Shown here: positions 1,810 to 32,470 of the stretch, in pieces
How positions within the stretch are numbered: the stretch's first letter is position 1
Layout of the letters: each line of letters begins with the position of its first letter
Position numbers and translations under genes: made by a program
Origin: a virus
Strand: one strand, 5' to 3'
IMG/VR virus record: IMGVR_UViG_3300021963_007715
Span: 1-34,244 of that record
Length of the DNA stretch: 34,244 nucleotides
The notes under the pieces: model-generated
What the model was told of the DNA's origin: nothing
The model's database searches: none
Seen by the model: only the letters and a program-made list of their open reading frames with translations

Positions 1810-2161
1810 CAACAGGTAGCACCCCAGTCCAGTCTGGTCCAGGGTCTTGTTCTTTGTAGTTTTTTACTCGTGCGTCCATTTCGGTGTAGAACGAATCAAG
1901 TTCGCCATTCCAACGACCCAATAGCTGTTCTACAGCCTGTTCGCAATAGTTCCAGTTGCGTAGGTAATAGTTCTTGATGAGATTTTGGTGTAGATCCAAG
2001 TATTGATCTACACTAAACATTTCCTGTATAGGTGTGTTTTCGATCAGACAATAAGCAGTGCTTTTTTTGTCTGCGTCAGCAAAATAAAAAGTGTCTAAGG
2101 GCAACAACATGTATTTTGACTTGACATCGTCGGTGATTGAATCTTCAAACATTATATTCAT
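1802..2161 (-). CDS. Hypothetical protein, translationally coupled to clpS
   Basis: A 119-residue acidic, aromatic-rich protein that I do not recognise. Its ATG overlaps the clpS stop as ATGA (2158-2161), so it is very probably translated from the same message. A later ATG at 2152 is possible but the overlap favours the first. The middle (residues about 44-90) is predicted largely helical, with several Leu, Tyr and Trp residues (YYLRNWNYCEQAVEQLLGRW). No signal peptide or membrane segment is seen. Confidence 0.75.
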   Translation of the reverse strand: MNIMFEDSITDDVKSKYMLLPLDTFYFADADKKSTAYCLIENTPIQEMFSVDQYLDLHQNLIKNYYLRNWNYCEQAVEQLLGRWNGELDSFYTEMDARVKNYKEQDPGPDWTGVLPVVK

Positions 2162-2460
2162 GCTGTATCGGGTTCCAGTTTAATTTGCAATGGGTAGCCT
2201 TCTGATCTTGCGTTTACAGTGATTTCGATGCCTTTCTGTTCGGCCACTTCGTACGGCAATACTGCAACCACAGCTGAACCCGATTCGTGGATGTCCATGG
2301 TGATTGTTTGAGCAGTATCTGGTGTGTATTCAAAATGTTCAATTAAGCTGTCAACAACAAACTCGACCGCGGTGCGATCATCATTTAAGTATATGACCTT
2401 GAACAGAGGCGGTTCTTTAAGAGAGACATTAGTTCTTGTTTTTGATTCGACATTGGCCAT
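2158..2460 (-). CDS. clpS: ClpS-like N-degron adaptor
   Basis: A 100-residue protein that covers the whole ClpS core. Bacterial ClpS binds N-terminal Phe, Leu, Tyr or Trp of substrates and delivers them to ClpAP. The fold-defining block PPLFKVIYLNDDRTAVEF (17-34) aligns with E. coli KVILNNDDYTPMEF, so Asn26, Asp27/28, Thr30 and, further on, His58 match the pocket residues Asn34, Asp35/36, Thr38 and His66. The C-terminal GYPLQIKLEPD matches the family end. The gatekeeper Met40 of E. coli is replaced by Val32. No ClpA is in the window, but a phage ClpX lies about 1.1 kb upstream in the same orientation. It is followed by a coupled 119-aa gene and preceded by hsp20. Confidence 0.9.
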   Translation of the reverse strand: MANVESKTRTNVSLKEPPLFKVIYLNDDRTAVEFVVDSLIEHFEYTPDTAQTITMDIHESGSAVVAVLPYEVAEQKGIEITVNARSEGYPLQIKLEPDTA

Positions 2461-2478
2461 TGTGTGATCCTTGAAAGT

Positions 2479-2503
2479 GGCCCGAGTTGCCCCGGGCCTT
2501 TTT
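2479..2503 (+). terminator. Rho-independent terminator reading on the plus strand, inside a minus-strand operon
   Basis: GGCCCG (2479-2484) pairs with CGGGCC (2493-2498) around an 8-base loop and is followed by TTTTTATTT on the plus strand. On the minus strand no T-run follows, so the strong orientation is plus. The only plus gene upstream is the glycosyltransferase-like one, whose message would run antisense through the 119-aa gene and clpS before stopping here. The hairpin also sits between hsp20 and clpS and may attenuate or protect the minus message. Confidence 0.65.
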
Positions 2504-2505
2504 AT

Positions 2506-2961
2506 TTAAGCTGAGAGAGCGGGAACATAGTTGACAGCAATCTTCTTGGGCCGTTGCGATTCAGGAATGTTTCGCTCCAGCTTGACAGTTAAGATGCCAT
2601 CTTTTAGTTCGGCGTCGCGCACTTCAACATATTCTGCCACCGAGAAGGTGCGAACAAAGCTGCGGCCGCTGATGCCATGATGCAGATACTCTACCTCTAG
2701 TTGAGGGGTAGCTTCTGCTGTTTTCTCGCCCTTAACAATGAGTGTACCATTGTTGAATTCAACATCAATATCCGCTTGTGCAAAGCCAGCTACTGCCACA
2801 CGAATCTCGTAAGTTTCGTCGCCAGTGCGAACAATGTCGTAAGGTGGATAGTTTGTTGAAGCTGCCGAATCAATTTGGCTTACGATACGATCGAACAATC
2901 GATCGATTCCAATTGAATTGCGGTAGAAGGGGGTGAGGTCTAGAGTTGTGAGTTTAGTCAT
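2506..2961 (-). CDS. Hsp20/IbpA-type small heat-shock protein
   Basis: A 151-residue ATP-independent holdase of the alpha-crystallin family. The beta-sandwich domain spans about residues 38-138 and shows YDIVRTGDETYEIRVAVAGF, the IDVEFNNGTLIVKGEK strand pair and the diagnostic ELKDGILTVKLER block. The C-terminal KKIAVN corresponds to the IxI/V anchor that bacterial IbpA-type proteins use for oligomerisation. AGGAG lies 6 bases before the ATG. A perfect T4-late-like octamer 62 bases upstream and a 5'-leader hairpin suggest high late expression, perhaps as a chaperone for virion proteins. Small Hsp20 genes are known from cyanophages and other T4-like phages. Confidence 0.93.
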   Translation of the reverse strand: MTKLTTLDLTPFYRNSIGIDRLFDRIVSQIDSAASTNYPPYDIVRTGDETYEIRVAVAGFAQADIDVEFNNGTLIVKGEKTAEATPQLEVEYLHHGISGRSFVRTFSVAEYVEVRDAELKDGILTVKLERNIPESQRPKKIAVNYVPALSA

Positions 2962-2994
2962 TTTGATCTCCTATTAAGCAAGTTTGACTATATG

Positions 2995-3030
2995 TTGCAG
3001 CCCGACATCGGCACTGCAAGTATATTTATA
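2995..3030 (-). promoter_or_regulatory. T4-like late promoter plus 5'-leader hairpin for hsp20
   Basis: The minus strand reads TATAAATA at 3030-3023, identical to the T4 late -10 octamer. A few bases after the expected transcript start, TTGCAG (3019-3014) pairs with CTGCAA (3000-2995), with a further partly paired C/G core between them. The ribosome site lies outside the hairpin, so the stem probably stabilises the message rather than blocking it. No other gene starts between here and hsp20. Confidence 0.7.
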
Positions 3031-3063
3031 ACATAGAACAATCATTAACACAATAGATAATGG

Positions 3064-3312
3064 TTAACGATTGTTAAGGTCTCGTACGATTCGGTAACGT
3101 TGCCAAGCAGTTTCTGGCCAAGTCAACTGAAAATAGGTATAGACTGCATCATCTTCAAAGCACACTCGGTACTTGAACTTGATGGTCTTGGTTGTGTATT
3201 TGATATTGTTGTGTTGTTCGGCCCATTCAACCAGCTCTCGGGTAATAAGTTGATGAATATATCCAGTTCCCGCAAAAGATGATCCTTGCGGCAGGTCGAA
3301 CTCGATATACAT
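3064..3312 (-). CDS. Hypothetical protein downstream of rpsU
   Basis: An 82-residue protein of unknown function. Its ATG overlaps the bS21 stop (TGATG at 3314-3310), so it belongs to the clpX-rpsU message. It shows alternating hydrophobic/charged stretches (IKYTTKTIKFKYRVCFEDD, then VYTYFQLTWP), suggesting a small mostly beta fold with aromatic residues; no membrane segment or catalytic motif is evident. Codon use resembles its neighbours. Confidence 0.7.
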   Translation of the reverse strand: MYIEFDLPQGSSFAGTGYIHQLITRELVEWAEQHNNIKYTTKTIKFKYRVCFEDDAVYTYFQLTWPETAWQRYRIVRDLNNR

Positions 3313-3533
3313 CAGTACATTTTTTTAGGAAGCTGTTGACTACGCAAGTACTTTTTCCAACGTGATTTGGCCTGGGCAGCTTTGACCTTGCGACGTGTGG
3401 TGGGTTTGATGTAGGTTTCGCGTTCGCGCAATTCTATCAGCAATCCAGACTCAGCAATTTTCTTCTTGAACTTTCTGAGTGCTTGTTCAACTTTGTCATC
3501 CTGTACGTATACAGTTCTTCCGTTTAATTTCAA
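3312..3533 (-). CDS. rpsU: Ribosomal protein bS21 homologue, TTG start
   Basis: The 73-residue product aligns along its length with bacterial bS21, the small-subunit protein beside the anti-Shine-Dalgarno end of 16S rRNA that affects initiation. Seen directly: ALRKFKKKIAESGLL (about 17-31), ELRERETYIKPTTRRK and a basic C-terminal tail ending KKMY, compared with RRREFYEKPTTERK and RLY in E. coli. There is no ATG. AAGGAA is followed 6 bases later by TTG at 3533, which gives MKLNGRTVYV; a TTG at 3539 has no spacer and is less likely. The reading overlaps or abuts the clpX stop. Phage bS21 genes are known in large and T4-like phages and are thought to bias host ribosomes. Confidence 0.9.
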   Translation of the reverse strand: MKLNGRTVYVQDDKVEQALRKFKKKIAESGLLIELRERETYIKPTTRRKVKAAQAKSRWKKYLRSQQLPKKMY

Positions 3534-3535
3534 TC

Positions 3536-4741
3536 TCAATTCCTTGTTAATGTTGCAGGATTATTTACCTGTTTCTCATCAATATCTACGCATTTAACGG
3601 CTGTAGCTTGATATTGCTTGAGATCAAACATGTGCGGCAACAACACACGTTCTAGTTCGCTTTGCAGGGCTCTAGCACCTGTTCCGGATGCAATAGCACG
3701 TTCTACAATGGCCAAGATAGCATGGTCGTCAAAGGCTAGATCCACACCGTCTTGCTGAAACAGCCAACGATATTGATCAATCAAGTTGTTTTTTGTTTCG
3801 ATTAAGATACGCACAAGATCTGCTTTTTCCAACTGCTGTAGTGCAACTACCACGGGGAAACGTCCAACAAATTCTGGAATCAGACCAAACTTGACTAGAT
3901 CATCTGGGGTCACAGTACCTAGATCTATGGATACATTTTTTGACTGCACTTCTTTGCCAAATCCTATGCCGCCGCCCACAGTGCGTGATTTGATGATCTT
4001 GTCCAAGCCCACAAATGCGCCGCCGGCAATGAACAGAATATTGGTAGTATCAATTTCGATCATTTCGCCCGACGGATGTTTACGTCCACCCGACACTGGT
4101 ACACGACAAGTGGTGCCTTCTACCATTTTTAACAAGGCCTGTTGAACACCTTCGCCTGACACATCTCTGGTGATGCTGGCACTTTCGCTCTTGCGTGATA
4201 TCTTGTCAATCTCGTCAACATACACAATACCACGTTGTGTTTTTTCCAAGTTGTTGCCGGAGTTGGTATACAGTCTGGCAATAAGTGTTTCCACATCATC
4301 GCCCACATATCCAGCTTCGGTAATACTGGTAGCATCAGCAATGGCAAACGGCACGTCCAGGTACTTGGCAATGGTCTTGGCCAGCATGGTCTTGCCGCAG
4401 CCGGAAGGCCCAACCATGAGAATATTGGCCTTGTTGATTTCAATGTCTTTGTCTTGGTTTGATATGCGTTTGTAGTGATTCACAATGGCTACTGCCAGAG
4501 TCATTTTGGCCTGTAGTTGCCCTACTACATATTGATCCAAGTACTCTTTTAGCTTCTTGGGATCTTGTCCATCGATTAACTGCTGTTTTACAGCATCCGC
4601 GGCATCGTCGTTTTTCAACAAGTCTTGACACAAGTCAACGCACTCGTTGCAGATTGCCACACTATCACTGACTATTAACTTTTTGACTTCTTCTTTTTTC
4701 TTACCACAAAAACTACAGACATTCTTCAGTGCATCTGACAT
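3536..4741 (-). CDS. clpX: ClpX unfoldase (AAA+), full length
   Basis: The 401-residue protein has all ClpX parts: the zinc-binding adaptor domain with Cys9, Cys12, Cys31 and Cys34; Walker A GPSGCGKT (111-118); pore loop GYVG (144-147); Walker B VYVDEID (173-179); the RKH-type loop GGRKHPSGE (218-226); the ClpP-docking IGF tripeptide at 259-261; the arginine finger in [10 protein letters not shown] (287-296); and sensor 2 GTGARAL (353-359). Bacterial ClpX unfolds substrates for ClpP. No clpP is present in the window, so the retained IGF loop implies docking to host ClpP. The start lies one base from the stop of the upstream membrane protein, and rpsU overlaps the end, so these are one transcription unit. 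Overall similarity to bacterial ClpX is high. Confidence 0.96.
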
Positions 4742-12393: not shown

Positions 12394-12472
12394 AGTTGCT
12401 ACTCCTATTTGTTTAGCGTAAAAATATTATACTAAATGGTGTATTTCTGGTCAACCTATACTGCGGTTGCAG
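12394..12472 (-). promoter_or_regulatory. Cassette C: stem-loop, sigma-70 promoter and leader
   Basis: CTGC-AACC-GCAG hairpin (12472-12461, inside the previous coding end), TTGACC (12454-12449), 17-base spacer, TATAAT (12431-12426), leader CTAAACAAATAGGAG before GTG. The leader differs from A and B at a few positions. Confidence 0.8.
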
Positions 12473-14345
12473 GTATTTGAGTATCAGATCCAATGCCAGC
12501 GTTGTCAAAAACTTTGATATTTCTGCCTTCTCTAAAGCTGGCAATGATGGCTTGACCGTATTGATTACTGGTATCAGCAATGGCGGTGAAGAAATCATTT
12601 TGACCTTTGGGTGCTACATCTGTTCCGATATCGTGCAAACTGCTACTCAGGCTCATGACGCTGCTTCTGGAATTGGCAGCTAGGTCACTGAAGGTCACCT
12701 GTGCCAGGACCAAGTTGTTTGTTTCTGCACTCAGTTGCTGTGCCATTGTGGTAAAGCTGGTGTTTAGGGAACTGACATTGCTGACGTTATTGGCGGCCAC
12801 GTTGGCAATGAGATTGGCAGCAGCCGGTATTAGACCAGTACTGAAAGCAGCATCCAAGTTGCCATATGTACCTTCTCCCGGCAAGCCGGAAGGAATAGTG
12901 ATGGTGATTTCAATAGGGCTGGGACTGATTACAGTGGTGTAATCACCGTCTAATGTGTCCTGCATTACAGTATAAACACCGTAGGTAGAATCGGTTAGGG
13001 TGTACAGAGCATTAGCCGATTGCATGGAGTTTATGGTACTGGTGACCGAAGTAAATTCAGCTGTGTAGGGTACGCCAGCAGTGGCACCCATGAAATCAAA
13101 CAAGGTTAATGTACCGTTGGGTCCAGTGCCTGTGGCCAGAGTGCTGTTGATGTTTGAAGCAACGCCAGGAGGAACAGGTTTTGTTAACGCAGTAATATCT
13201 CCCAGGCCTGAGTTGGTTTCGGTTGCTGTCACTGTTCTGGCCAAAACCGGCAAGGTCAGTTGAAAAATGTTTTTGACCTGTTGCAAACTGTTGGCAATGG
13301 CCTGCGCAGCTAGAGCCTGGTCTGATGGAATAATTTTAGACAAACCAACATAGGCTGGACTGGTACCATACACTGACAATAGATTACTGTTGATAGTGTT
13401 GGCAGAAACATATACATTGCTCAACACTGTAGCAGTGGGAGTAACATCAGTGCCAGTGGGTGTTAGATTGGTTAGACCTAAATAACTATTGGGCAAGCTT
13501 TTTACTGGATTCAACAGGTCGGCCATTGTAGACAAGTTTTCGGTGGTTACACTCAACAGCAGCTTGACCTGATCTAGTAGGTCGCCTGTAACTTGGGTCA
13601 TGACTTGATAAATCAACAGGTCCACTGATCCAGCCACTTCTGTTCCGCGTTGTATGGAACTAAGGTCATCTATGGTAACTCCAGTATTGATTAACTGTTG
13701 TGTCAACTCTGGCATGATACCGCCGGCCTGCGACATTTGATACAACAGCACCCAAGGATATCCAAACACTGGTAACTTGTTCAAAGCCCAAGCAGTTCCC
13801 AACTTGGTTAGATCAGCTCCGAACGCTGGCAGATTACGATTGATGTCGCTGATACCACCTGTGGTTATGCTGTTCATGCTGGTAAAGGTCGTATCCAGCA
13901 CTGCGGAATTTTTTACACTGTTAATAATGGGATTGTTTTGCGCAATATAGCCTTGACACTGGCCGTACACCTGAGCAAACTTTCCCAGGTCTCCGTTGCC
14001 CAAGATTAGATTTGCTTGTGTGCTCACCAGGCCTGAGAACCCTGCGGCACTGTTGCCAATGGGCAAGGTGTTGGCATAAGCAGCAGGCACTGCATCAGTA
14101 ATGGCAGGCAAAGTATTAGCAGCTAGGCTTTGTAACGAACTAAAAGTACTGGTAGTAATTTGATCATTGCCTACGCCCACATTAGCAAATGCAGTAGACA
14201 GTATGCTGAGGTAGCTGCTGACCGCAGTGGTACTGGTATAAGCATTAATGGCCACTGTTAGATTGCCGCTGATTGCAAGACCTTGATTTTGTAGTAGGCC
14301 GTCAGTGGCAATTAACATTACTGAACTATAGGGACCTTGACTCAT
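12456..14345 (-). CDS. Tail/baseplate-associated structural protein (putative)
   Basis: 629 residues, very rich in Ser, Thr, Ala, Asn and Leu, poor in charge, starting MSQGPYSSVMLIATDGLL. Predicted mainly helical repeats such as AANLIANVAANNVSNVSSLN. No signal peptide, Cys cluster or enzyme motif. Placement directly after the PAAR gene (3 bases apart, same message) and the size suggest a baseplate or spike-associated protein. It has no promoter of its own, so it should share the PAAR late switch. Function is inferred from context only. Confidence 0.6.
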   Translation of the reverse strand: MSQGPYSSVMLIATDGLLQNQGLAISGNLTVAINAYTSTTAVSSYLSILSTAFANVGVGNDQITTSTFSSLQSLAANTLPAITDAVPAAYANTLPIGNSAAGFSGLVSTQANLILGNGDLGKFAQVYGQCQGYIAQNNPIINSVKNSAVLDTTFTSMNSITTGGISDINRNLPAFGADLTKLGTAWALNKLPVFGYPWVLLYQMSQAGGIMPELTQQLINTGVTIDDLSSIQRGTEVAGSVDLLIYQVMTQVTGDLLDQVKLLLSVTTENLSTMADLLNPVKSLPNSYLGLTNLTPTGTDVTPTATVLSNVYVSANTINSNLLSVYGTSPAYVGLSKIIPSDQALAAQAIANSLQQVKNIFQLTLPVLARTVTATETNSGLGDITALTKPVPPGVASNINSTLATGTGPNGTLTLFDFMGATAGVPYTAEFTSVTSTINSMQSANALYTLTDSTYGVYTVMQDTLDGDYTTVISPSPIEITITIPSGLPGEGTYGNLDAAFSTGLIPAAANLIANVAANNVSNVSSLNTSFTTMAQQLSAETNNLVLAQVTFSDLAANSRSSVMSLSSSLHDIGTDVAPKGQNDFFTAIADTSNQYGQAIIASFREGRNIKVFDNAGIGSDTQIPATAV

Positions 14346-14348
14346 TTA

Positions 14349-14639
14349 TTATCCAATAGAGACACTTTCGCTGCCTTGAATTATTTGTGTGCATTCGCTC
14401 ATGCGATCGCCCACAGTGGCAATGGGCTTTCCATTTACAAAAACAGAACTGCTGCGAGCTATAATTTTACTCACATGCGGTACACACTTGTTGCCCTGTG
14501 GTTTTTGATGCACTGTGCTGGAATCACCGTCACGGGCTACAGGACGCCCGTCAACAAAAACATCCGGGGATCCGGTAGAAATTGTGTATCCACTGCAATG
14601 TACAGCTCCGGCATCACCTTGTCTTGCTACTGCTGGCAT
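14349..14639 (-). CDS. PAAR-domain spike-tip protein
   Basis: 96 residues with a PAAR-type repeat pattern: ARQGDAGAVHC near the start, VFVDGRPVARDGD (27-39) and VFVNGKPIATVGD (66-78). His14, His44, His55 and Cys83 are candidate zinc ligands, with Cys15 and Cys52 nearby. PAAR proteins form the sharp metal-bound cone on the tail spike (T4 gp5.4 is one) and on type VI secretion spikes. With a phage late promoter and a putative tail gene beside it, the tail-spike role is preferred. The ribosome site GAGAG is in a hairpin (see the regulatory entry). Confidence 0.9.
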   Translation of the reverse strand: MPAVARQGDAGAVHCSGYTISTGSPDVFVDGRPVARDGDSSTVHQKPQGNKCVPHVSKIIARSSSVFVNGKPIATVGDRMSECTQIIQGSESVSIG

Positions 14640-14642
14640 AGT

Positions 14643-14678
14643 ATTTCTCTCGTAAGTTGTATATTTATCGAGAGAAAT
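14643..14678 (-). promoter_or_regulatory. Late promoter nested in a ribosome-site-hiding hairpin
   Basis: A perfect 10-base inverted repeat, ATTTCTCTCG (14678-14669 on the minus strand) and CGAGAGAAAT (14652-14643), encloses 16 bases. The second arm contains GAGAG, the ribosome site 7 bases before the PAAR ATG. GATAAATA (14669-14662), one base off the T4 late octamer, lies at the first arm/loop border, so a transcript started from it (about 14656) would lack the first arm. Read-through RNA from the oxygenase operon upstream would keep both arms and hide the site. Confidence 0.7.
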
Positions 14679-14687
14679 ATAGGTGTA

Positions 14688-15335
14688 TTATGTATTGGCC
14701 AACTGTGCAAGATACTGTACAGTAGCAGGTGTTTGCACACCAGTTACTTGCAGTGTTACTCTGGGATGGTGGCTGGCATTGGCTGTGGCATGTGGAAGAT
14801 TTTGCCAATCAAATGTGGTCACTTCGCCAGCACGCCAACGGCTATGGCAGTAGTTGCCATAACTCCAAAACTGTCCAGATTCCCAATCAGTCAGCTGTAT
14901 TTGCACACGCAGCACACTGTTGGGATTGTCGGGATTCCACTTTTCCAACTTGTCTAGGTGCAAGTTCCAAACTTGACCAGGCATTTGCACGTGAATACGA
15001 GCCATGGAATCTTCTAAGGCAAAGCGGTCAGCAATCTCTTGCAACACAGGAGGAATTGCCCAGTTTAGATTGGTGATGACATAATCTGCTCCGTATCCTT
15101 CGCGTTCTAGGTCATAATCTTCTGCAGCCAGTTCTTCCTCGGGTCGTATTTTACCCGCAGCACCACGTGTGCGCCAGGTAGCAGATCTCGAGTTGGCCAC
15201 AATGTCTGCCAACTCTGAATCCCAACATGGCTGGATAAATCCCAGACGCACAACACGATCTTGATCAGGATCAAAACGACGATTATCAAAATGATATTGA
15301 CTGCGTTTTTTAGTTTCGTCCCATGAGCTCATCAT
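14688..15335 (-). CDS. Putative 2-oxoglutarate/Fe(II) oxygenase (HxD...H)
   Basis: 215 residues. The double-stranded beta-helix is suggested by MARIHVQMPGQVWNLHLDKL with His126-x-Asp128, the distal His182 in DWQNLPHATANASH, and Arg192 in HPRVTLQVTG as the likely 2-oxoglutarate anchor. Substrate unknown; phage 2OG oxygenases may act on DNA bases, proteins or sugars. Its ATG overlaps the stop of the sulfotransferase-like gene (ATGA), so it belongs to a three-gene cassette with that gene and the Bug-type protein. A second 2OG oxygenase lies at 31235-31885. Confidence 0.75.
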   Translation of the reverse strand: MMSSWDETKKRSQYHFDNRRFDPDQDRVVRLGFIQPCWDSELADIVANSRSATWRTRGAAGKIRPEEELAAEDYDLEREGYGADYVITNLNWAIPPVLQEIADRFALEDSMARIHVQMPGQVWNLHLDKLEKWNPDNPNSVLRVQIQLTDWESGQFWSYGNYCHSRWRAGEVTTFDWQNLPHATANASHHPRVTLQVTGVQTPATVQYLAQLANT

Positions 15336-15946
15336 ACCACAGTTACCTCAATGTCTGATTTTTTGTAACTTTGATAATATTCCATAGGTGGTGGTTCAAT
15401 GCCCAAGGTCCTTGCCAAAGTCAGGTTGTCTCCAATGTAATAACTGCCTTTCCACGCTGCCATAATATCTCTATTTTGATCTGCAATGATTCGAGCCATG
15501 TGTCGAAGATCCACATAGTACTGTTCATATTTAGGGTAAGTGATATTGAAATGACCGCACTTGACCCACCAGCCCAGACAGGCATCGTCACAGCGATGTA
15601 CCAGAATAACTGGTGAATCAGGCCAGTGTTTTTTTAGAAAATCAATGTGGTGTGCAAAAACATGACTCTTGACAATACGCACACCTTCTCCCGAGAATGG
15701 ACGATCAAATTCTGCTTCACATTCTTCTTTGCTGTAGTCAGATAATCTATCAAAAAATCCACCAAACTCCATACCAGGATCAAAGTATGCACCCAAGTGC
15801 ATGAGTTGTGGTTCTCCCCATGCACTATGCCAATACTCACGTGCCGCACTAGCATCACTGCGGTCAATACTGGAACTGAAGTAAATGTTCTTTGCTACGC
15901 TGGACCATTTACTTCCTGGGGCACCTGCCATAAAGATATATTTCAT
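15332..15946 (-). CDS. Sulfotransferase-like P-loop protein
   Basis: 204 residues starting MKYIFMAGAPGSKWSSVA, a P-loop at 8-16 with the Gly-Ser-Lys-Trp variant typical of PAPS-dependent sulfotransferase folds. RIVKSHVFAHH followed by PVILVHRCDDACLGWWVKCG resembles the 3'-phosphate-binding strand and helix, where an Arg after the strand binds PAPS. No membrane segment. The overlap with both neighbours (ATGA at each end) argues for a shared task, perhaps modification of a small molecule or cell-surface component. A nucleotide kinase is an alternative, but no Walker B pattern is plain. Confidence 0.6.
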   Translation of the reverse strand: MKYIFMAGAPGSKWSSVAKNIYFSSSIDRSDASAAREYWHSAWGEPQLMHLGAYFDPGMEFGGFFDRLSDYSKEECEAEFDRPFSGEGVRIVKSHVFAHHIDFLKKHWPDSPVILVHRCDDACLGWWVKCGHFNITYPKYEQYYVDLRHMARIIADQNRDIMAAWKGSYYIGDNLTLARTLGIEPPPMEYYQSYKKSDIEVTVV

Positions 15947-16926
15947 TTTTTTCCTATTAGGTCAACTTGATCAGCCAGTGGCATCCAAATACTACGCAAG
16001 TGTTCAATATGCTGATCAAATCCAGCAGGTGTCATTTCTGCAGGTACAGCAATAATTAAATTGTCTTCGTAGTATTTTTTCACTGCTGGAGTGTACATAG
16101 CAGCAGTGAATGCCCGGCGATACCATTCTACAATCTCTGCTGGTGCGTTTGGAGGCAGTACCAGTGACCATGCTGCATAGATATCAATGTAACTTCCGCC
16201 TACTTTGATTGGTTCTGCTTCAGGTAATTTGGCTAATTTTTGATCGCCTGTGATACCAATCACTTTGACTTTGCCGGCCTGCACCAAAGGTAGTGCAATG
16301 CTGATGGGCATGATTCCAAACTCTATACCGGCATCGCTAGCAGTGGCTGAAACTGCTTGTAATGGGCCTTGATATTGTACAAATTTAACAAGATCTTTGT
16401 TGCCTTGTGCTTTCCACATGAAATATTCAAATGTCATACGATGTGCACCTGATCCCACTGCAAAAGTAACTGGTTTGTTGGTATTTTTAACCAGCTCTGC
16501 TAGTTCAGCAGCCGTGTTGATTTTGCTCTTGGGGTTGGCCACAATAGTCAAAGGACTTTTGCCCATGCCCATTACACTGGAAAAACTGTTGTATTTGAAT
16601 TTCTTGATATCTTTTTGCCAAATATCATTGGTGATGTAAGTGCCAACATAACTGGGAACACTAATAGTGTAACCATCAGGTTTGGCTTCATACAAATAAT
16701 TACTGGCGATCACACTGTCAGCACCAGGTTTGAGTTCTATTAAAAAATTGGCATTGGGATTGGCCTTGGTTACTTCGGCTGCTAACACTCTAAATCCTAC
16801 TTCATTGCCAGATCCCGGCTGAAAACCAATAACAACACTAACAGGTTTAGTGGGTTCCCATGCCGCAGATGTCAGAGGCATAACCGATATTGCTGCCAAT
16901 AACAGGGCAGAGATAAAACGTTTCAT
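15943..16926 (-). CDS. Bug/TctC-family periplasmic substrate-binding protein
   Basis: 327 residues with a signal peptide (MKRFISALLLAAISVMPLTS, cleavage near residues 20-22). The mature part follows the Bug family of tripartite tricarboxylate transporter receptors: VSVVIGFQPGSGNEVGFRVL at the start, VGSGAHRMTFEYF, GIMPISIALPLVQAGKVKVI in the hinge region and LPPNAPAEIVEWYRRAF near the end. These proteins bind carboxylates in the periplasm and are heavily expanded in Burkholderiales. A phage copy without membrane partners (no TctA/TctB here) would feed host transporters or act on its own. The ATGA overlap with the next gene places it first in the cassette. Acquisition from a betaproteobacterial host is likely. 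Confidence 0.9.
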   Translation of the reverse strand: MKRFISALLLAAISVMPLTSAAWEPTKPVSVVIGFQPGSGNEVGFRVLAAEVTKANPNANFLIELKPGADSVIASNYLYEAKPDGYTISVPSYVGTYITNDIWQKDIKKFKYNSFSSVMGMGKSPLTIVANPKSKINTAAELAELVKNTNKPVTFAVGSGAHRMTFEYFMWKAQGNKDLVKFVQYQGPLQAVSATASDAGIEFGIMPISIALPLVQAGKVKVIGITGDQKLAKLPEAEPIKVGGSYIDIYAAWSLVLPPNAPAEIVEWYRRAFTAAMYTPAVKKYYEDNLIIAVPAEMTPAGFDQHIEHLRSIWMPLADQVDLIGKK

Positions 16927-16977: not shown

Positions 16978-17012
16978 GCATAAATTTTTATGCTTTTGTA
17001 ATTTTATTTATC
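16978..17012 (-). promoter_or_regulatory. Late-like promoter and leader hairpin upstream of the Bug gene
   Basis: GATAAATA (17012-17005 on the minus strand) is followed by a leader with GCATAA-AAAT-TTATGC (16993-16978). The leader runs about 75 bases to the Bug ATG, which has AAGGAA 8 bases upstream. The region is very A/T rich, so a chance octamer match is quite possible. Confidence 0.4.
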
Positions 17013-24192: not shown

Positions 24193-24618
24193 TTATTGTA
24201 AAAAACTTGCTAAATCTTTACTGTCGATACGTCGGAGCACAGTGAGAGATGTTGAGTTGATATTTAACACTTCACCAGGAGCCCAATTCAATATATATTT
24301 CCCAGAGTCGATCTGGACTAAATTGTCTTGGCCTGTCAAAATGATCTCAAGATCAGTATATAGCTGACGATCCAACAGTAGTAAAGTATACACTATACCT
24401 AGGGCTCTTGCAAGATCACAATAGCCGCTATTCACTAATAAATCCCATGGAGTTGGCCATTCAGCAGGGTTGTCCCACGTTACTACTCGATTGACAATGG
24501 GTGCGCGAAACCACCAGGTGTTGATCAGTTGTAATTGTGCAGGGAGTTCTACCGCAGAGGCTGCTTGCCGAAGATGATACCAATCAGCAAGTCTTTCTTG
24601 ATACAGGTGTTTCCACAT
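24193..24618 (-). CDS. Conserved-looking phage protein after the tail fibre
   Basis: 141 residues with a Trp-rich N-terminal half (NTWWFRAPIV, WDNPAEWPTPWDLL) and GYCDLARALGIVYTLLLLD; the second half looks beta. No catalytic motif known to me. Its ATG overlaps the fibre stop (TAATG), which suggests a fibre-linked role such as chaperone or attachment factor; that is inference from place. Confidence 0.7.
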   Translation of the reverse strand: MWKHLYQERLADWYHLRQAASAVELPAQLQLINTWWFRAPIVNRVVTWDNPAEWPTPWDLLVNSGYCDLARALGIVYTLLLLDRQLYTDLEIILTGQDNLVQIDSGKYILNWAPGEVLNINSTSLTVLRRIDSKDLASFLQ

Positions 24619-26195
24619 TAAGCTAGTCGTGCTAAGGAATATGTTATGGTTCCGGATAAACCTGTTGATGTACTTGAATAAAGTACGCTGACTACATCTC
24701 CCGATCTTGTTACACTTAGAGTAATACCCGAACTGGCATCTTCGGTGTATTCATCGGCGTAACTCACTGCCGGCGATACAGATCCTGCTGTGACTACTAG
24801 CGTTCCAAACCGCACCACAGTGTTTCTTGTGATGGTGTAGGTCATCTCGTAGGCTTTGATAGTGGATGTGTCGGTTGTAAAAATAGGTTGATTGCTTTGA
24901 TTGTCAGCTAGGGTAAAAATTCTACCATTCTCTCTGGCATAGTGACCCACTTGAATTTGTGTGCCAGTAGTGGTAGCGGAACCTGTAACTTCAACTCTGG
25001 GCTCAATCTGTGCATCAACATCGTCACGTTCAAACATGTCGCTGATCGATGCATTGTTGTCGTTGCCAAACAATATCACTGGTGTAACAGGGCTAGATGA
25101 ATATTGATTACCCACATCGTAAAATACATTATAAGCTGACACATTGAGATCAACATTGTCATATATAATGCCTTCAGAATAAATTTCGTCAAACAAGTTT
25201 TGCACAGCACGGAAGCCTGTGGCGCCACCGTTGACAGGAGCACCTGTGCCTAGTGATATGCCTTGGTACAGTGTGACAAATGCACCGTTGCTGACCGTGA
25301 CAGAGTTGATTTCTTGATCTGTGTTGATACCGTATGTTAAGCCTTGGAAGCGGCACTTGTCAAATGTGATTTGATTACACACCAAACTGACTGTGCTGGC
25401 AAAACGCACGCCAGCAATGTTGTCAGCACTGGGAGTAGCAATGATATCAGCAGTGGTCAGCGGACCCACAAAGTTCACACTGTCAAAATAACACTGTGTG
25501 GCATCTTCGACTAAGAATACATCTGTGACTTCTACAGTTTCAAATGTCATTGACGAGATTTCAATGTTGGTAGGAGCAGTGGCACCGTTGTTGCCAATGT
25601 TGACACCTGTTTGTTGCAGGCTATCACCGTAGCGAGCCACGTATGCGCTCAAGCTGGAAATATCGCTGCTGGTATCTAAATAAATTGTAGTACAGTTTGC
25701 ACCCTCGCCTACCAGTTTAGCATAGGCAGGAATAATGATAGTTTCTGTTATTTTGTAGGTTCCTGCTGGGAAATACAAAGTACGACGGATCTGTGTGTTG
25801 GCTTCCACACAGTATAATTGGAACAAGGCACGATTAATGGCTGCTGTGTCATCTGCGGCGCCATCACCAACAGCACCAAAATCTCTAACATCTGCAAAGT
25901 CGTCTAGTTTGGCTTGTACTGTGCGCACCACTGGATTGCTGGTTGTAGGCCCTGTTTGTGCTGCATAGCCAACTGCAATGTCTTTGTAGGTGTAGTTGCT
26001 GACTGCTGTAATGTCTGAAAATTCTGTCAGGATCTCAGTATTTCCAATTATTGGAGCACCTTCTTGTAGTGTACCGTTACCAATAAACAATTGGCGTGTA
26101 TCGACAGCCCAGCCCAATTCAGCGCCGGCCAGCTGCGGCAGGTTTTCTATTAACCCTTTACGGTTGGTAATTCTAGAGATTTGTACAATGGCCAT
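24618..26195 (-). CDS. Tail fibre/spike with pectate-lyase-type beta-helix
   Basis: 525 residues. The N-terminus (VQISRITNRKGLIENLPQL, then WAVDTRQLFIGNG) has the pattern of the attachment domain found at the start of many T4-like marine-phage fibres. VRDFGAVGDGAADDTAAINR (103-122) is the classic pectate_lyase_3 opening, followed by FPAGTYKI and a run of beta-helix coils up to about residue 400. The C-terminal 130 residues are Ser/Thr/Val-rich beta structure, probably the receptor or trimerisation end. No signal peptide. Sugar-cleaving activity is possible but not shown. Confidence 0.9.
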   Translation of the reverse strand: MAIVQISRITNRKGLIENLPQLAGAELGWAVDTRQLFIGNGTLQEGAPIIGNTEILTEFSDITAVSNYTYKDIAVGYAAQTGPTTSNPVVRTVQAKLDDFADVRDFGAVGDGAADDTAAINRALFQLYCVEANTQIRRTLYFPAGTYKITETIIIPAYAKLVGEGANCTTIYLDTSSDISSLSAYVARYGDSLQQTGVNIGNNGATAPTNIEISSMTFETVEVTDVFLVEDATQCYFDSVNFVGPLTTADIIATPSADNIAGVRFASTVSLVCNQITFDKCRFQGLTYGINTDQEINSVTVSNGAFVTLYQGISLGTGAPVNGGATGFRAVQNLFDEIYSEGIIYDNVDLNVSAYNVFYDVGNQYSSSPVTPVILFGNDNNASISDMFERDDVDAQIEPRVEVTGSATTTGTQIQVGHYARENGRIFTLADNQSNQPIFTTDTSTIKAYEMTYTITRNTVVRFGTLVVTAGSVSPAVSYADEYTEDASSGITLSVTRSGDVVSVLYSSTSTGLSGTITYSLARLA

Positions 26196-26201
26196 TTACG
26201 T

Positions 26202-26226
26202 ATACCTATTTGATCAGGTATTTATG
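26202..26226 (-). promoter_or_regulatory. Late promoter overlapping a hairpin over the fibre ribosome site
   Basis: CATAAATA (26226-26219), one base off the late octamer, overlaps the first arm of ATACCT (26221-26216) / AGGTAT (26207-26202), an 8-base-loop stem. AGGT in the second arm lies 8 bases before the fibre ATG. A start about 6 bases after the octamer drops the first arm, freeing the site; read-through RNA from the nuclease gene keeps it. Confidence 0.6.
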
Positions 26227-31957: not shown

Positions 31958-32419
31958 TTAGGCTAGTTTGAAACCTGCGTCAGTAACGTCTGTACCCGAC
32001 ACGTTAACGCCTGTCACTGTACCGTTGCTGGCTGTGATCTGAACGTTGCCCAATGCTTTTAGAGCTGCGTCAAGAGTAGCAGCAGTCCAAGCACCACTTG
32101 GGTAGATACCGTAGCTGATCTGACCACTTGAGTCAGCTTCAACTTGATACATAGCGATTGTGGCTGTGCGCTGAATAGCTTGATTGATTTGAACAACAAC
32201 ACCTGGTGTGAAAACACCGGCTGTTACGTTGCCCAACTGGTTGGTAATGTCAACTGCTTGGTTGCTACCGTTCTGAACGATAACTTTGAAGTAGTCTAAC
32301 TTAGGACCTGCCATCTGCACTAATGCAGCTGACGAGATGTCGCCTGTCTGGGCGCCGTTGTTGATGTCTAATGCAAATACCGGTTGTGCATCGCCATTTG
32401 CTGGTGGAAAATATGCCAT
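31958..32419 (-). CDS. Highly expressed small structural protein (putative)
   Basis: 153 residues, Ala/Val/Thr/Gln-rich, few charges, beta-type. MAYFPPANGDAQPVFALDIN at the start and a C-terminal Ig-like or beta-sandwich stretch. A consensus late promoter with leader hairpin, AAGGAGC 7 bases before the ATG and its own terminator make it the best-equipped late gene in the window, as expected for a head-decoration or tail-tube-type protein. No homologue is named from sequence alone. Confidence 0.7.
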   Translation of the reverse strand: MAYFPPANGDAQPVFALDINNGAQTGDISSAALVQMAGPKLDYFKVIVQNGSNQAVDITNQLGNVTAGVFTPGVVVQINQAIQRTATIAMYQVEADSSGQISYGIYPSGAWTAATLDAALKALGNVQITASNGTVTGVNVSGTDVTDAGFKLA

Positions 32420-32440
32420 TTTAAAGCTCCTTGGTTAAGT

Positions 32441-32470
32441 GGGACAATTTCGTCCCTGCACTTATTTATA
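32441..32470 (-). promoter_or_regulatory. Consensus T4-like late promoter with 5'-terminal hairpin
   Basis: TATAAATA (32470-32463) is an exact octamer; GGGAC / GTCCC (32456-32441, loop GAAATT) starts within a few bases of the expected transcript start and would cap the message of the 153-aa protein. The ribosome site is outside. Confidence 0.78.

Follow-up and report, generated by a model that had tools for sequence, protein, structure and literature searches.

The leader of a PAAR spike-tip gene in an uncultivated, T4-like phage is probably a promoter-embedded translational switch of the kind known from T4 gene e. The window (the whole 34,244-nt stretch of DNA that was analyzed) carries, on its minus strand, an inverted repeat that encloses a late-type promoter octamer and holds the PAAR ribosome site in one arm. 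RNA entering PAAR from upstream genes would carry both arms and fold into an 11-bp hairpin that hides the ribosome site, so that PAAR would hardly be translated, and probably neither would the 629-aa gene that follows. Polymerase guided by a gp55-type late sigma factor would use the octamer GATAAATA in the hairpin's own DNA, and the resulting late RNA would begin at about 14656, without the 5' arm, and be freely translated. We infer the use of this late promoter, its +1, the fold in cells and the timing. What appears to be new here is the location of a known T4 gene e-type switch, at spike-tip and tail-spike-like genes. The features of the PAAR locus are as follows.

12456-14345, minus strand: 629-aa gene, starting 3 nt past the PAAR end and adjoining PAAR in the six relatives compared
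14349-14639, minus strand: PAAR spike-tip gene, 96 aa (PF05488, E 3.2e-16; phrog_281, E 2e-24)
14642-14652, minus strand: hairpin 3' arm CGAGAGAAAUA (DNA form CGAGAGAAATA), including the ribosome site GAGAG
14656, minus strand: predicted late +1, placed at the sixth base past the octamer, so that the leader is 17 nt long and lacks the 5' arm
14662-14669, minus strand: T4-type late-promoter octamer GATAAATA, spanning -13 to -6
14669-14679, minus strand: hairpin 5' arm UAUUUCUCUCG, 11 nt, carried by read-through RNA only
14688-15335, minus strand: co-oriented 215-aa gene directly upstream, the presumed source of the read-through RNA

A predicted late promoter inside the PAAR hairpin

The minus strand ahead of PAAR reads UAUUUCUCUCG-AUAAAUAUACAACUUA-CGAGAGAAAUA-CU-AUG. 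A reading made from the sequence alone (the sequence-only reading) had described a perfect 10-base inverted repeat at this place; the repeat is indeed perfect (100% complementary, with a 16-nt loop), and its arms are 11 bp long. That reading had also correctly located the PAAR ribosome site in one arm and a late-like octamer at the border of the other arm and the loop: GAGAG, which is a weak ribosome site, lies inside the 3' arm, 8 to 12 nt ahead of the PAAR ATG at 14639, and the 5' arm ends, on its loop side, with the first G of the octamer, most of which lies in the loop. According to the T4 rule (PMC1524935), the late octamer occupies -13 to -6. Folding the RNA of 14680-14600(-), as had been suggested, yielded -20.3 kcal/mol (z -3.09), and 2 of 200 shuffles were equally good.

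Perfect arms of at least 11 bases with a loop of 3 to 30 occur once in the window and 0.33 times on average in 12 first-order Markov sequences, and because 0.33 are expected per window, the 11-bp repeat is unremarkable on its own. The placement of the repeat, unlike the repeat itself, is rare. With the octamer, leader and start codon held fixed, 600 dinucleotide shuffles of the upstream 45 nt and 600 random same-strand 45-mers from the window included none that hid the ribosome site equally well (p = 1/601 in each test). The octamer, its conservation, the fold and the loss of that fold in the predicted late RNA were all computed. With late RNA taken to start at the sixth base after the octamer, the cost of opening the ribosome site falls from 13.0 kcal/mol (read-through RNA) to 0.7 (late RNA), which agrees with the earlier proposal that read-through RNA folds over the site and late RNA frees it.

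The same method was applied to T4, using 35 of 91 T4 features, listed by hand, as a yardstick (cost pairs are given throughout as read-through/late RNA, in kcal/mol). The two octamers of gene e gave 13.1/2.9 and 14.8/0.4, and segB gave 11.9/4.8, whereas the octamer genes 53 (11.1/6.7), 4 (8.2/5.7), 15 (5.3/6.7), 9 (2.8/0.7) and 18 (2.4/2.8) fall by at most 4.4 on late RNA. Because the read-through cost of gene 53 is high too, it is the large fall on late RNA that marks e, segB and PAAR. The computed costs of the PAAR leader are nearly identical to those of gene e, and the appeal of the sequence-only reading to the logic of T4 gene e is borne out to that extent. The primary paper on gene e is reportedly that of McPheeters et al. 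1986.

Gene e has a late promoter inside the DNA of the hairpin that hides its ribosome site on read-through RNA (PMC3014915). Unlike gene e, which encodes lysozyme and has two octamers, the PAAR leader serves a spike tip and has one; its hairpin, again unlike that of gene e, is built of 11 perfect pairs and leaves most of the octamer in the loop, and the late +1 is a predicted one. Sequestration of the ribosome site on the longer RNA is also described for T4 soc, 49, I-TevI, I-TevII, I-TevIII and segB and for Aeh1 mobE (PMC3014915, PMC2988022). The endonuclease hairpins of T4 and Aeh1 resemble that of PAAR in that the late RNA lacks the 5' arm. The soc, 49 and endonuclease genes are neither PAAR nor tail-spike genes, and they come from cultured phages, several of them having been tested in the laboratory, whereas the PAAR switch is computed. 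The NATAAATA late promoters of T4-like cyanophages are similar in the form of the octamer and in their position before late genes (PMC2984593); the same source, so far as it was accessible, mentions no sequestering hairpin, and the phages considered here are uncultivated. The literature, covered in part (including PMC3014915, PMC2988022, PMC2984593, PMC2988020 and PMC1524935), describes no such switch at a PAAR or tail-spike gene.

Two other identities for the PAAR hairpin were considered and rejected. It has no U-run behind its 3' arm, as a terminator would, and the minus strand has no terminator-like site between 14300 and 17200. The sole match to a known RNA family at 14300-15400 was to CRISPR-DR36 (15027-15045), far below the gathering score.

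The 629-aa gene is probably on the same late RNA as PAAR. Its product had been called a tail protein, a label we consider unfounded because searches of Pfam, the PHROGs and PDB sequences found no match for the product and its single-sequence fold, with a pLDDT of 33.7, was useless as a model.

Signs of T4-type late transcription in the phage group

Among the matches listed, 11 of 11 close IMG/VR relatives (contigs with an 83 to 100% identical PAAR, drawn from 80 of 95 confirmed relatives) retain the octamer at PAAR in the form NATAAATA; together with the window, these represent seven distinct PAAR leaders, the window's type included. Of the other 69 listed PAAR loci, 3 have ATAAATA and 7 have C/GTAAATA no farther than 60 nt from the start.

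The octamer is enriched ahead of start codons, those of late genes included. All of the following counts use start codons from simple ORF rules, not curated ones. ATAAATA is not overrepresented in the window as such (7 copies versus 5.43 expected), and six of the seven copies sit 19 to 78 nt before a same-strand start codon. In six contigs of the clade, 16 of 38 ATAAATA lie 8 to 50 nt before a start, as do 6 of 14 CTAAATA and 4 of 24 GTAAATA, compared with 1 to 4 of 35 to 51 copies for five control motifs; AAATAAT (11/60) and TTAAATA (10/42) are raised before starts too. On the 337-kb contig G032, the counts for the same interval are 19/47 for ATAAATA, 16/44 for CTAAATA and 13/46 for GTAAATA, versus 2/27 for TTAAATA, 4/59 for ATAAATT, 7/42 for ATAATAA, 7/71 for AAATATA, 2/37 for ATATAAA and 4/36 for AATAATA; TAAATAA, which overlaps the motif, stands at 13/42.

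An octamer precedes the start of the tail-sheath gene by 29 nt in G008 and by 27 nt in G032, and that of the G032 gp55 gene by 19 nt. No octamer was found within 60 nt of the G032 genes for DNA polymerase, clamp loader, uvsX, helicase, uvsW and nrdAB, nor within that distance of those for capsid (gp23), portal (gp20), prohead protease (gp21), terminase (gp17), gp14 and gp47; gp15 and gp46 had no readable start in this check. The genes of the second group, from capsid to gp47, may lie inside operons.

A gp55 gene was matched in 3 of the 19 records searched (G017, G031 and G032), a count that leaves out a doubtful match in G024 (E 9.8e-5, internal stops). The products from G017 and G032 match phrog_12791, annotated as "sigma factor for late transcription" (E 4.2e-76 and 5.1e-75); in G032 the gene adjoins an SbcD/gp47-like gene, and G017 has a look-alike neighbor. 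NrdA from G031, G032 and G017 is 87%, 84% and 46% identical to that of the window. No gp55 was found in the window or, by profile search, in eight of G001 to G011, all of which are fragments. It was likewise not found in other long relatives, among them G018 (154 kb), G019 (130 kb) and G020 (114 kb), which may be fragments and whose NrdA proteins are about 79 to 87% identical to the window's. Two of these have a divided NrdA match: the halves are about 0.7 kb apart within a single 1,087-aa open frame in G019 (intein-like) and 1.6 kb apart in separate frames in G018 (intron- or endonuclease-like). A tblastn search with gp45 of P-HM2 gave no match in the window, G008, G011 or G032. Core proteins of P-HM2 were matched in G032 (17/26), G008 (7/26), the window (2/26) and G011 (2/26), those of the last two being nrdA and nrdB only, and judged by these core genes the group appears to be T4-like.

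Upstream of PAAR, a further octamer at 17005(-) lies ahead of the operon and could yield late read-through RNA too. Because of it, we did not adopt a wholly late-specific reading of the switch: the RNA from upstream may be late as well, and the split may be one between PAAR's own promoter and an upstream promoter rather than strictly between late and early. The PAAR hairpin would act on read-through RNA whether that RNA is early or late. A/T-rich inverted repeats surround the 17005 octamer and its counterparts in G002 and G006 (AAAAATTT...AAATTTTT in these two relatives). At 15943-16926(-), there is a phage-borne gene for a TctC tripartite tricarboxylate receptor (PF03401, E 1.1e-23). TctC is 49 to 50% identical in G008, G010 and G011 and has no match at 1e-5 in G002, G006 and G007; since it is present in only some relatives, the slot is variable. 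Elsewhere in the window (2158-4741, minus strand), genes for a ClpX-like AAA+ protein with a ClpX zinc finger, an Hsp20 and a small protein of an "ATP-dependent protease" family are clustered, perhaps as a phage proteostasis cluster.

The PAAR hairpin in relatives and competing explanations

PAAR stands directly behind the co-oriented 215-aa gene in the window and in G002, G007, G010 and G011. Pairing is strong in the window, in G002 (opening cost 14.6/0.7, p 1/601) and in G007 (10.4/1.2, p 0.012), moderate in G010 (6.9/1.8, p 0.028) and weak in G011 (5.6/0.4; p 0.33 by shuffle and 0.085 against random real stretches). The sequence-only reading would have been embarrassed by relatives with both arms unpaired and the gene intact, and two such relatives exist. 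G006 and G008 keep the PAAR gene and the octamer and have lost the hairpin (1.4/1.6 and 1.9/1.9); two antisense genes are inserted before PAAR in G006 and one co-oriented gene in G008, and the context that requires a switch has therefore changed in both. These two contigs fit a hairpin that is needed only where RNA of the 215-aa gene runs into PAAR.

Compensating changes in the arms, which that reading had also proposed to look for, are present in one sense: G007 pairs with different letters, UUCUCC/GGAGAA, and hides the ribosome site likewise. Column-wise covariation at PAAR was not counted because G008 was badly aligned by MAFFT and the window and G007 pair in different registers. When the halves of leaders were exchanged, the real pairing was the best of 24 for the four directly adjacent types (the window, G007, G010 and G011); for all six PAAR leader types, 42 of 720 permutations matched the real one, which is not exceptional. 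A wider pattern search returned 30 stretches, 19 of them unique, of which 1 was dropped (late leader too short) and 2 were near-copies. The 16 representative octamer-bearing leaders had a mean cost of 6.17 versus 4.90 when permuted, a value reached by 108 of 20,000 permutations, with the signal coming mainly from two leaders, the window-like and G007 types. The six PAAR relatives from the genome collection, at most 45% identical, were of no use for leader comparison.

We consider it rather unlikely that the hairpin is an operon insulator and not a clock, blocking PAAR on all RNA started upstream, early or late, with the dose set by PAAR's own promoter. This would accord with the 17005 octamer, which could make the upstream operon late too, and with the missing hairpin in G006, where two antisense genes intervene, and in G008, which has a co-oriented insertion of one gene. 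Yet timing is its sole difference from a T4 gene e-type switch. On the G007 and G010 contigs, no co-oriented ATAAATA exists besides the PAAR octamer, and G011 has none between the tail-spike-like gene and PAAR. Judged by ATAAATA alone, with the CTAAATA and GTAAATA forms left aside, the upstream RNA in G007, G010 and G011 thus need not be late.

That the late promoter alone matters and the hairpin is incidental seems improbable to us. The octamer does occur in all 11 listed close relatives and the hairpin does not occur in all, and a repeat of 11 bp is expected 0.33 times per window; but the placement test (p 1/601), the same pairing achieved with different letters in G007 and the recurrence of the design, with covariation, in the tail-spike-like family described below all argue against it. 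The promoter is also flanked by an inverted repeat as a DNA operator for a dimeric repressor might be, and I-TevI binds over its own late promoter (PMC2988022), but we give this candidate hardly any credence: the letters of an operator should be conserved, whereas arm letters vary among relatives with pairing kept, and the arms lie outside or inside the octamer depending on the leader.

Tail-spike-like and other octamer leaders

A second leader consistent with a T4 gene e-type switch lies in the same window.

24618-26195, minus strand: tail-spike-like gene, with a pectate-lyase-like domain and matches to tail-spike families
26202-26221, minus strand: second switch-like hairpin, AUACCU...AGGUAU, with six Watson-Crick pairs and one G-U
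26219-26226, minus strand: late-type octamer CATAAATA of the tail-spike-like gene

In this leader (CATAAATACCUGAUCAAAUAGGUAU), the 5' arm AUACCU begins inside the octamer and the 3' arm contains the ribosome site AGG. T4 gene e has ATAAATACCT...AGGAGGTATT (RNA UAUAAAUACCUUC...AGGAGGUAUU) where the tail-spike-like leader has ATAAATACCT...AGGTAT. The arms AUACCU/AGGUAU are identical in G002, G008 and G011, and the costs, with starts again from simple, uncurated ORF rules, are 8.1/2.2 in the window, 9.7/2.2 in G002, 9.8/2.4 in G008 and 7.9/3.3 in G011.

The tail-spike-like family is large (at least 588 relatives confirmed). We scanned 200 loci, comprising 80 of these relatives and 120 loci from a pattern search that had to carry TAAATA, which yielded 123 unique leaders; of these, 73 at below 75% identity served as representatives. 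The mean cost of the 73 was 6.98 with their own halves, 4.72 with halves swapped and 2.82 on late RNA; none of 5,000 permutations reached the real mean, and 17 of the 73 reached p 0.05 individually (3.7 expected). The difference between read-through and late RNA is at least 5 kcal/mol in 29 of the 73 and below 2 in 26, and the switch is thus common among tail-spike-like leaders and not universal.

In one class of these leaders, the helix extends from the octamer's final A as far as the base preceding AUG. At least six such end-anchored pairs occur in 11 of 99 leaders versus 0.1% of shuffled ones, and when 3' ends were exchanged inside the class, six pairs survived in 28 of 110 combinations. 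In 15 aligned leaders of the class, 92.4% of cells are paired, a figure biased upward because the 15 were chosen by eye as paired (L257 was omitted, its stretch being that of L247, and L298 and L239 stayed in despite their poor alignment). This bias bears less on the double changes and on the slid controls. Two-sided changes were found in 15 cells versus 3.8 when shuffled, and 5 of 8 pairs changed on both sides versus 2.5 (reached by 3 of 500 shuffles). The covariation score of 0.377 was reached by 0 of 500, and sliding by 1 to 3 columns destroys it. These alignments suggest that compensating changes have been kept in this class of tail-spike-like leaders.

Three types of hairpin are now apparent, with arms outside the octamer, arms starting in the octamer and arms ending at the start codon. 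We tentatively speculate, short of favoring the idea, that in a large group of uncultivated T4-like phages selection may act on the position of the arms relative to the late +1 and not on their letters, and that such hairpins may have arisen repeatedly at host-contact genes as a general punctuation of late operons. If true, a textbook posttranscriptional switch would extend from T4 lysozyme and selfish endonucleases to the host-contact genes of uncultivated phages. As comparative material that includes a covariation test, the tail-spike-like leaders could be carried over to T4 laboratory systems, and the results suggest annotating T4-like late promoters jointly with the folding of their read-through RNA.

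When all of G032 was tested, with starts again from simple ORF rules, p 0.05 was reached by 6 of 44 octamer leaders against about 2 expected, a modest excess. The octamer leader of a 153-aa gene in the window (32419-32470, minus strand) is a weak third candidate for a switch: the stretch before the octamer is complementary to the AAGGAG site by GGU/ACC and CUU/AAG, a GGGAC/GUCCC stem-loop lies just past the octamer, and the opening cost is 4.7 versus 2.1 (p 0.21). At the G032 start at 127743, a hairpin GGGUAU...AUACCC follows ACTAAATA and ends at the start codon.
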